Shown here piece by piece: positions 47,351-49,628 of a DNA stretch of 64,000 nucleotides. A program made the translations under genes and the position numbers. The notes under the pieces were generated by a model. It saw only the letters and a list, made by a program, of their open reading frames with translations, did not search any database and was not told where the DNA came from. Each line of letters begins with the position of its first letter. Position 1 is the stretch's first letter. The DNA is from Rhodoluna limnophila (GTDB lineage: Bacteria; Actinomycetota; Actinomycetes; Actinomycetales; Microbacteriaceae): NCBI RefSeq assembly GCF_005845365.1, contig NZ_CP040509.1:248001-312000 (forward strand), in the 5' to 3' direction.

Positions 47351-47761
47351 ATGAACAAAAACGCCGATAAGAAGCCAGTTCCGCTCATCATCGCTGTGCT
47401 TTTTGTGCTTCTCGAAGGGTTGGTGGTGGCCTACTTTGCGGCCCAGTTGGGTTTTGGAATTCTGATGGGCGACAGCCGCAGTCTGGTCACCGCGATAGCG
47501 CTATTTGCGCTGGTGGCTGCGGCTGCGGCCTGGGTAATTTTTGTCGCAATTTCTCTACTCAAGGGCAAGCGTTGGGCGCGAAGCGGGGCCTTGTTTTGGC
47601 AGTTGATTCAACTAGCTGTTGCGACCGGATCATTTAGCGGCCAATTCGGCAGCCAAGCCATTGGCTGGAGTCTGATTTTGCCTTCGGCTGTGGTGTTGGT
47701 GGCGCTATTCAATAAGCAGACCATTGCTGCCACAATGAATAGCTCCGACCCAGAAGACTAG
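47351..47761 (+). CDS. Small integral membrane protein
   Basis: A 136-aa protein with four hydrophobic segments (about residues 10-32, 43-65, 72-95 and 100-122) and short polar ends. I recognise no specific family motif. The ATG at 47351 is chosen because GAGGA lies four bases upstream; an open frame from 47264 has no ribosome-binding site and covers the whiB1 upstream dyad. Its stop overlaps the convergent bcp stop by four bases (CTAG). Function unknown. Confidence 0.75.
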   Translation: MNKNADKKPVPLIIAVLFVLLEGLVVAYFAAQLGFGILMGDSRSLVTAIALFALVAAAAAWVIFVAISLLKGKRWARSGALFWQLIQLAVATGSFSGQFGSQAIGWSLILPSAVVLVALFNKQTIAATMNSSDPED

Positions 47762-48231
47762 ATTCCGAGAAGCTTTCGAAGCATTAGAACGTGTCCGGTG
47801 GCCTTTACGTTATAGAGGGCCAGGGCAACTTTTCCGGTCTCGTCAATTGCAAAGGTCGAGCGCAGTACGCCTGTGTACTCGCGGCCGTAGAGCTTCTTGA
47901 GGCCGTAGGCGCCGAATGCCTTGTGAACCTCTAGGTCGGCGTCGCTGAGCAATTCAAAGTTCAAGTCTTGGTTTTGCTGGAAAGTCTTTAGCTTCGATAC
48001 CGCATCAGGGGAGATGCCCAGAACTGTGTAACCCGCAGCCTTGAATGGGTTGAGGTTGTCGTTGAAGTCGCAGGCTTCTTTGGTGCAGCCTGGGGTTGAG
48101 GCAGCAGGGTAGAAGTACAAAATGACTTTCTGGCCTCGGTAGTCAGATAGCGAAACCGGCTTTCCGTCTTGGTTCTCGACCGTAAAGTTTGGAGCCTCGT
48201 CGCCGACAGTAAGTTTTTTCTCATCAGACAT
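47758..48231 (-). CDS. bcp: Thiol peroxidase of the Bcp/PrxQ family
   Basis: Reduces hydrogen peroxide and organic hydroperoxides using a thiol reductant. The 157-aa protein has the peroxidatic Cys49 and resolving Cys54 in STPGCTKEACDF, the atypical 2-Cys PrxQ spacing, and a thioredoxin-like fold (DEAPNFTVENQDGKPVSLSD at the start). ATG 48231 is preferred; an in-frame GTG at 48237 would add two residues. The tRNA-Lys gene is divergent 60 bp away, and the stop overlaps the convergent membrane-protein gene. Confidence 0.93.
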   Translation of the reverse strand: MSDEKKLTVGDEAPNFTVENQDGKPVSLSDYRGQKVILYFYPAASTPGCTKEACDFNDNLNPFKAAGYTVLGISPDAVSKLKTFQQNQDLNFELLSDADLEVHKAFGAYGLKKLYGREYTGVLRSTFAIDETGKVALALYNVKATGHVLMLRKLLGI

Positions 48232-48291
48232 ATTCACCAGTCTATTCGATGTGGTATTGTTGTTCTTCGTTGCGCTGATTCAGCTCAACAT

Positions 48292-48367
48292 GCACCTCTA
48301 GCTCAATCGGCAGAGCAACTGACTCTTAATCAGTGGGTTCCGGGTTCAAGTCCCGGGGGGTGCACCA
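48292..48367 (+). tRNA. tRNA-Lys (anticodon CTT)
   Basis: A complete cloverleaf with encoded CCA. The acceptor GCACCTC pairs with GGGGTGC (one T-G pair), D-arm GCTC/GAGC, anticodon arm ACTGA/TCAGT with loop CTCTTAA (anticodon CTT), and T-arm CCGGG/CCCGG with loop TTCAAGT. The discriminator is A at 48364, followed by CCA. Confidence 0.97.
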
Positions 48368-48371
48368 ATCT

Positions 48372-48404
48372 AAATCCTTCACCATTGCGGTGGAGGATTT
48401 TTTT
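48372..48404 (+). terminator. Intrinsic terminator of tRNA-Lys
   Basis: AAATCCTTCACC pairs with GGTGGAGGATTT (one T-G pair), five-base loop, then a run of T. It starts five bases after the tRNA CCA end and argues against any coding start before about 48405 for the next gene. Confidence 0.92.
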
Positions 48405-48443: not shown

Positions 48444-49628
48444 ATGGACGAGCTAATTGACATCCACTCCGACCTAGAGCTGATTCTCGAAAAACACTTT
48501 TCCGGCTTGCATTCCGGTGGCGGCAGAAGTTCTATCCGTGGGGGCCAGACGGCCGCCAATCAGGCTCTGCACGACCTAGACATCCGTGGTTATGCCGCAC
48601 AGCGTTCAGAGGTTTTGCCACGGTCAAAGCGCGGGGCAACCGTGCTCTCGCCGTACATCCGGCACAACCTCCTAACTCTGAAGCAGGTCTGGCAAGAGGT
48701 TGAGGCTGCGCCCTTCAAAGATCGTGAAAAATTTCAAGATGAGCTGTTGTGGCAGGAATATGCTCGCCACCTTTATGCCCGCATTGGTGCCGAATTCTTT
48801 GAGAACCTAAGGTTTGAGCAGGTTTGGGATGCCCCGGGTGATGGTTGGAATCGCGACATGAATTGCATCGACGAGGTGGTTTCTGAGCTCGAGCAGGATG
48901 GCTGGTTGGTCAACCAAACTCGAATGTGGCTGGCCTCTCACTGGACTGTGCGCAACGGTCGCGGGTGGCTGCATGGGCAAGAACGGATGTATCGAGAGCT
49001 TATCGATGGGTCACGCGCAGCAAACCTGTTGGGCTGGCAGTGGACAGTTGGCTCTGGCGGAAAGCCCTACGGTTTTGCCCGCTGGCAGGTCGAGAAGCGC
49101 GCACCGGGACTTTGTCTCAAATGCCCGCTGAACAAAGCATGCCCGATCCAAGAGTTTCCTGAAGATAAGGCTCTGGTTCAGCTGGGATCCAGGCCAAGGC
49201 TAGACAGTGACCCTGACCTTGCGCGGACTACCGGTCCGGTATCGGCAATTCATAATGCCAATCCGGATGCTGTGCTGCTGACTATTGACTCGATGGGTGA
49301 TGCTGATCCGGCGCTGGTTGCCAACCCTGATTTGCCGGTTGTGTTTGTTTTCAACCGAGACGCCCTGGCAAAGTTGAAACTTTCCTCGAAGCGCATCTAC
49401 TTTTACCTCGAGACTCTGCAGGACCTCGCCAGCCGCAGGAATCTATCGGTGTACATAGGTAGCCCCTACGAATATGCCAAGGAAAACCGAGTTGCTGTCA
49501 CCTATGCGCCGGTGCCGAGTTTTGCTAAGTTCGAGGATCTGGCCGAGGTGCACCCGTACCCGTGGCTCAAGAAACCACACGCCATGAGCGTGCGCTCGTT
49601 TAGTTCTTGGCGTTCAAAAATCCGGTAG
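48444..49628 (+). CDS. Photolyase/cryptochrome-like flavoprotein, Fe-S type, with apparently permuted domains
   Basis: A 394-aa protein. Residues about 25-240 resemble the FAD-binding domain of bacterial photolyases: GATVLSPYIRHNLLTLKQVW, ELLWQEYARHLYARIG, DGWLVNQTRMWLASHWTVRNG and AANLLGWQWTVGSG. Four cysteines, C141 (DMNC), C224, C227 and C233 (LCLKCPLNKACP), match the order of the [4Fe-4S] ligands of FeS-BCP photolyases such as PhrB. The alpha/beta domain that normally precedes the FAD domain is missing at the N-terminus. Instead, residues about 265-394 (LPVVFVFNRDALAKLKLSSK, FYLETLQDLASR, VTYAPVPSF) look like it. ATG 48444 is chosen because the tRNA terminator lies just upstream. Light-driven DNA repair or signalling is inferred. 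Confidence 0.8.
   Translation: MDELIDIHSDLELILEKHFSGLHSGGGRSSIRGGQTAANQALHDLDIRGYAAQRSEVLPRSKRGATVLSPYIRHNLLTLKQVWQEVEAAPFKDREKFQDELLWQEYARHLYARIGAEFFENLRFEQVWDAPGDGWNRDMNCIDEVVSELEQDGWLVNQTRMWLASHWTVRNGRGWLHGQERMYRELIDGSRAANLLGWQWTVGSGGKPYGFARWQVEKRAPGLCLKCPLNKACPIQEFPEDKALVQLGSRPRLDSDPDLARTTGPVSAIHNANPDAVLLTIDSMGDADPALVANPDLPVVFVFNRDALAKLKLSSKRIYFYLETLQDLASRRNLSVYIGSPYEYAKENRVAVTYAPVPSFAKFEDLAEVHPYPWLKKPHAMSVRSFSSWRSKIR

Follow-up and report, generated by a model that had tools for sequence, protein, structure and literature searches.

Short photolyase-like proteins (SPLs), also termed NewPHLs, have been described since 2020. They have an inverted domain topology and repair cyclobutane pyrimidine dimers (CPDs) in single-stranded DNA (PMC13274461, citing Emmerich 2020). 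The picocyanobacterial proteins Phr4/Phr5 and Phr6 are described as displaying a reversed domain order together with four cysteines (PMC9426592). Phr4/5 consists of two open reading frames (ORFs) and is predicted in that source to be a (6-4) enzyme, a proposal made because of its iron-sulfur (FeS) cysteines. A phr4 mutant loses UV-C survival but displays no UV-B sensitivity, and phr4/5 shields E. coli from UV-C (PMC9426592). The gene considered here is found in a 64,000-nucleotide stretch of the Rhodoluna limnophila genome (contig NZ_CP040509.1, positions 248,001 to 312,000), termed the window, and encodes a protein of 394 amino acids, termed here the SPL protein. An SPL of Rhodococcus fascians, attributed to a 2021 study by Xu, reportedly has flavin adenine dinucleotide (FAD), an FeS cluster and CPD repair activity, and the four cysteines are said to be present in some SPLs.

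The domain order of the Rhodoluna protein, the photolyase homology of both its domains, the four conserved FeS-type cysteines and the CPD-type alignment of its active site are computed results. The protein is best explained as an actinobacterial FeS-type SPL/NewPHL enzyme with the FAD domain first, most likely a light-driven CPD photolyase, and a probability of about 0.8 is assigned to this explanation. A first-pass annotation of the window had placed the ORF correctly, and had proposed a new architecture in the photolyase family. The latter proposal fails because the reversed order and the FeS cysteines of Phr4/5 and Phr6 are already in print (PMC9426592), and the inverted topology is known for NewPHL/SPL (PMC13274461). 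What is added here is a link, at the level of profiles, to the usual photolyase antenna domain, together with a likely identity and testable function for cpf2, an uncharacterised gene of freshwater actinobacteria from sunlit waters.

The SPL protein shares with SPL/NewPHL proteins an FAD domain that comes first, a short alpha/beta domain that comes last, a length of ∼400 amino acids and a class I-like FAD site. Three alphaproteobacterial NewPHL-like proteins, unlike the SPL protein, are without the FeS cysteine motif (C-x2-C) after the FAD domain. The likeness to Phr4/5 is drawn from their published description, and a single gene is present here instead of two ORFs; the steps between cysteines are 85/3/6 in Phr4 of RS9916 (C169/C254/C257/C263; PMC9426592) and 83/3/6 in the SPL protein. 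Class I CPD photolyases have the FAD domain and active-site residues in common with the SPL protein, and their antenna domain is homologous, but it is complete and the domain order is the opposite one. FeS-BCP proteins (PhrB, CryB) share the four FeS cysteines, but they are longer, have the normal order with an N-terminal DPRP domain and carry another residue at the N157 position. Membership in FeS-BCP was ruled out by the domain order and by the lack of a DPRP domain. In a tree of FAD domains, the actinobacterial clade joins six SPL-type plasmid proteins (support 86/76) and is separate from the class I and FeS-BCP sequences, the long branches of which are flagged by the program. The tree has 50 rows: 18 of the 36 members of the family alignment (A1), the 6 SPL-type proteins, 14 of 29 class I and 12 of 18 FeS-BCP sequences.

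The FAD domain, its active site and the cysteines

The Pfam family FAD_binding_7 matches residues 140-209 (hmmscan, E 6.7e-9), and the A. nidulans photolyase 1owl matches residues 29-209 (phmmer, E 6.1e-13). The FAD-binding half was rightly placed first by the first-pass annotation. FAD_binding_7 also matches 36/36 members of A1 at E up to 1. The family profile, which was derived from A1, matches class I photolyases at E 1e-23, their FAD part at E 8e-25 (residues 31-209 of the window protein) and the FAD part of FeS-BCP at E 5e-11.

Conservation was followed in 138 distinct sequences, 59 from genome searches (own included) and 79 from named contigs; a partial sequence (L057) and one with two in-frame stops (L110) were excluded. 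E100, W103, W175, N194 and W198 are invariant (138/138), N157 is Asn in 137/138 and M161 is Met in 134/138. In the alignment with class I enzymes, E100, W103, N157, M161 and N194 fall on residues of the CPD-type active site, including the Asn that contacts N5; the roles are those of the corresponding E. coli photolyase residues. In the FeS-BCP alignment a His stands opposite N157, presumably the (6-4)-type active-site His. Judged from these alignments, the active site has the look of a CPD enzyme rather than of a (6-4) enzyme.

The cysteines at positions 141, 224, 227 and 233 had been noted as FeS-type from the single sequence, and this is borne out: each is Cys in 138/138 sequences, and all four coincide with cysteines of the FeS-BCP profile. 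The latter are taken to be the cluster ligands, as in PhrB. The last cysteine step is 6 in the SPL protein versus 13 in the FeS-BCP of the same host. The host class I paralogue has no cysteine opposite C141, and the other three cysteines are outside the aligned part.

A protein of this architecture might instead repair (6-4) lesions, which is the activity put forward for the cyanobacterial Phr4/5. The four FeS-BCP-like cysteines are in keeping with such an activity, as are the Phr4/5 phenotypes under UV-C and not UV-B (PMC9426592). However, N157 is Asn as in class I CPD enzymes, where FeS-BCP has His, a full-length FeS-BCP is already present in the host, and the FeS-containing SPL of Rhodococcus fascians reportedly repairs CPDs; (6-4) repair by the SPL protein is considered unlikely. 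The question of whether (6-4) or CPD repair arose first is touched by the combination of FeS cysteines and a CPD-type site in one protein.

W198, W175 and position 128 are assumed to be the equivalents of the E. coli Trp triad. Position 128, picked by eye as the candidate for the third Trp in the classical chain, is occupied by Trp in 42/138 sequences, versus 138/138 for the other two. The NewPHL of D. shibae is described as having a 'mere Trp dyad' in place of the triad (PMC8948257). The pattern seen here would fit such a dyad, but is not proof of it, and another Trp may end the chain.

As a CPD photolyase, the SPL protein would bind FAD and a [4Fe-4S] cluster. Blue or UV-A light would excite FADH-, and an electron would pass to the dimer and split it, with E100, N157 and M161 holding this substrate. 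W198 and W175 would reload the flavin with electrons. The substrate would be CPDs, probably in exposed or single-stranded DNA, and the role of the FeS cluster is probably structural. The C-terminal domain may serve to close the FAD side rather than to carry a strong antenna pigment, which is unlikely because the domain is shortened.

The C-terminal antenna-type domain

Residues 250-394 alone show no match in Pfam or NCBIfam by hmmscan, and the family profile was needed to detect antenna homology. PF00875 (the class I antenna) does not match the SPL protein, and its only match in the host genome is the paralogue at C1:593095. PF04244 (DPRP) has no match in the SPL protein at E up to 10, and its only match in the host genome is at C1:104719. 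Weak PF00875 matches are found in three A1 members; individual scans of the A1 members L073, L010 and L034 gave no PF00875.

With the 36-sequence profile, hhalign gives a 70-column alignment to the N-terminal domain of class I photolyases, at approximately residues 275-346, with a probability of 93.6% and an E of 2.1e-7, calculated for one template. The score is 49.1, versus 11.7 for the reversed profile and a mean of 13.3 and maximum of 24.9 for 200 column shuffles. The C-terminal profile matches the DPRP domain of FeS-BCP weakly (hhalign probability 17%). When the C-terminal half of an AlphaFold2 model was compared with known structures by VIA-align, photolyases or cryptochromes made up 49/50 chains among the matches listed; Foldseek alone gave a weak result (best E 0.05). 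Entries named NewPHL or SPL were absent from the 50 matches listed in each of four listings, those of VIA-align and Foldseek included.

Homologues from Deinococcus plasmids extend this comparison. Of two fused proteins, one has a C-terminal PF00875 match (E 7.2e-4) and the other has none; in a split pair, PF00875 matches the second ORF (E 2.3e-4). Both matches are below the curated cut-off. A C-terminal profile of three Deinococcus sequences aligns with the class I antenna over 134 columns at a probability of 96.8%, versus 78.6% for DPRP, and the actinobacterial C-terminal domain matches this profile at E 1e-18. On the strength of these profiles, the Deinococcus homologues are a bridge from the actinobacterial C-terminal domain to the class I antenna domain. 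This is evidence, at the level of sequence, that these FeS-SPLs have as their C-terminal domain the usual photolyase antenna domain, relocated to the opposite end of the protein. A C-terminal profile of alphaproteobacterial NewPHL-like proteins, with three sequences too small to be decisive, gave no match, including to the actinobacterial domain.

The swapped order that had been read by eye is thus upheld by the hhalign match with its controls, by the Deinococcus bridge and by the structural comparison. It could still be argued that the C-terminal half holds a Rossmann-like domain of separate origin, with no more than a resemblance to the antenna domain. This would be in line with the lack of a Pfam match for the fragment, and with the methyltransferases, PPAT and USP-type folds that are found near photolyases in the Foldseek listing. 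The profile score exceeds that of every shuffle, however, and both the 134-column Deinococcus alignment with its actinobacterial match and the photolyases that dominate the VIA-align matches listed argue for homology; an unrelated origin is regarded as highly improbable.

The SPL of Deinococcus sp. QL22 plasmid NZ_CP097153.1 is split into an FAD ORF (L216:1390-2163) and an antenna-type ORF (L216:2160-2681). The overlap between the two is 4 bases, the annotation of the antenna-type ORF is hypothetical protein, and the arrangement parallels that of cyanobacterial phr4/phr5. Perhaps the two domains of photolyases began as separate proteins and were fused twice in opposite orders, with the FeS cluster ancestral to both the (6-4) and CPD lineages, and with the actinobacterial and Deinococcus FeS-SPLs and the two-ORF pairs of QL22 and cyanobacteria as remnants. 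Taken as a whole, this scenario is speculative and doubtful. In the Rhodoluna protein the alpha/beta domain is followed by a tail with the motif PWLxxP...SFSxW, which could possibly cap the FAD site.

Identity with cpf2 and distribution

The ortholog in R. lacicola is very likely cpf2 (rhola_00011000). A homologue with 73% identity is found at 1.105 Mb in genome G006, which comprises 1.4 Mb on a single contig, with a matching peroxiredoxin adjacent. R. lacicola cpf2 is reported to lie close to the peroxiredoxin gene rhola_00011030 (PMC8591293). The peroxiredoxin neighbour in the window mirrors this pair. The same source lists cpf2 among the potential light sensors of R. lacicola, and places the Rhodoluna transcript, which is down in light and up in the dark, in one expression group with DNA photolyase (PMC8591293).

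The listing and the light-dark transcript pattern would suit a cryptochrome-like light sensor that regulates light/dark expression and has no repair activity. Yet there is almost no variation at the positions that align with the repair active site, the expression group is common to cpf2 and DNA photolyase, and the SPL gene is sometimes close to FeS-BCP genes. A purely sensory role is accordingly thought quite improbable, and CPD repair is the preferred function.

Full-length homologues (E below 1e-100) are present in 9/59 genomes searched, own included. At E <= 1e-20, matches are found in 30/396 genomes drawn from the order and in 26/396 from the phylum, with the own genome included in both. 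On named genome contigs 472 relatives were confirmed, and the best 80 of these were kept; their contig titles include Rhodoluna, Aquiluna, Nanopelagicales, Cryobacterium and Frigoribacterium. Many lake bacteria have SPL/NewPHL proteins of this kind. A single scan of viral contigs yielded 20 pattern matches and no relatives, and none of 8 phage records covered 80% of the query. Four contigs titled as Bifidobacterium breve metagenome-assembled genomes (L110, L116, L151 and L159) have SPL genes that resemble the freshwater actinobacterial ones; they are probably mislabelled bins. The copy with two in-frame stops is from one of these.

The locus and its neighbours

Features of the SPL locus, with positions in the window
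Feature	Position	Strand	Remarks
FeS-type SPL/NewPHL photolyase gene (394 aa, ATG start; putative Rhodoluna cpf2 ortholog)	48444..49628	+	
FAD-binding catalytic domain, residues ~29-249	48528..49190	+	
Cys141 codon, predicted [4Fe-4S] ligand	48864..48866	+	aligns with conserved FeS-BCP Cys; 138/138
Cys224 codon, predicted ligand	49113..49115	+	FeS-BCP alignment; 138/138
Cys227 codon, predicted ligand	49122..49124	+	FeS-BCP alignment; 138/138
Cys233 codon, predicted ligand	49140..49142	+	FeS-BCP alignment; 138/138
Shortened antenna-type alpha/beta domain, C-terminal, residues ~274-372	49263..49559	+	hhalign, AlphaFold2, structure comparison
Conserved C-terminal tail P-W-L-x2-P ... S-F-S-x-W, residues 373-394	49560..49625	+	59 sequences; alignment A1
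tRNA-Lys (ctt), upstream of photolyase gene	48292..48367	+	
Peroxiredoxin gene	47758..48237	-	
Terminator-like hairpin after tRNA-Lys	48372-48400		consensus match only

The host genome is a single contig of 1,398,704 bases. Two other photolyases are encoded there, an FeS-BCP of full length at C1:104719 and one of class I type at C1:593095, and the SPL gene is therefore the third gene of the cryptochrome/photolyase family found in this small genome. A longer mechanical ORF of the SPL gene begins within the tRNA-Lys, and thus the ATG is the plausible start. The protein of the nearest homologue (L003) is 94% identical, and the codon differences are 114 synonymous and 24 non-synonymous, which indicates an intact gene under purifying selection. 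A pseudogene was ruled out by these differences and by the homologue search.

The tRNA-Lys (ctt) is close to the SPL gene in 8/8 scanned relatives, upstream in 6 and downstream in 2, and a peroxiredoxin relative is near the SPL gene in 8 further close loci. An FeS-BCP photolyase gene is found in the flanks of 5/140 homologue loci, in differing arrangements. Its distance to the SPL gene is <0.5 kb in three loci (L035, L075 and L077); in L147 the distance is ∼1.2 kb, and in L124 ∼4.4 kb. This proximity fits a repair role, and would suit a partnership that covers both lesion types. When 53 of the 80 loci were examined for conserved gene partners, the largest shared cluster comprised 10 loci, with mixed positions. 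A gene for a small DoxX-like membrane protein, named by eye, is near the SPL gene in 7/53 loci (e.g. L148), at a median distance of 25 bases, and in 6 of these it is upstream on the same strand.
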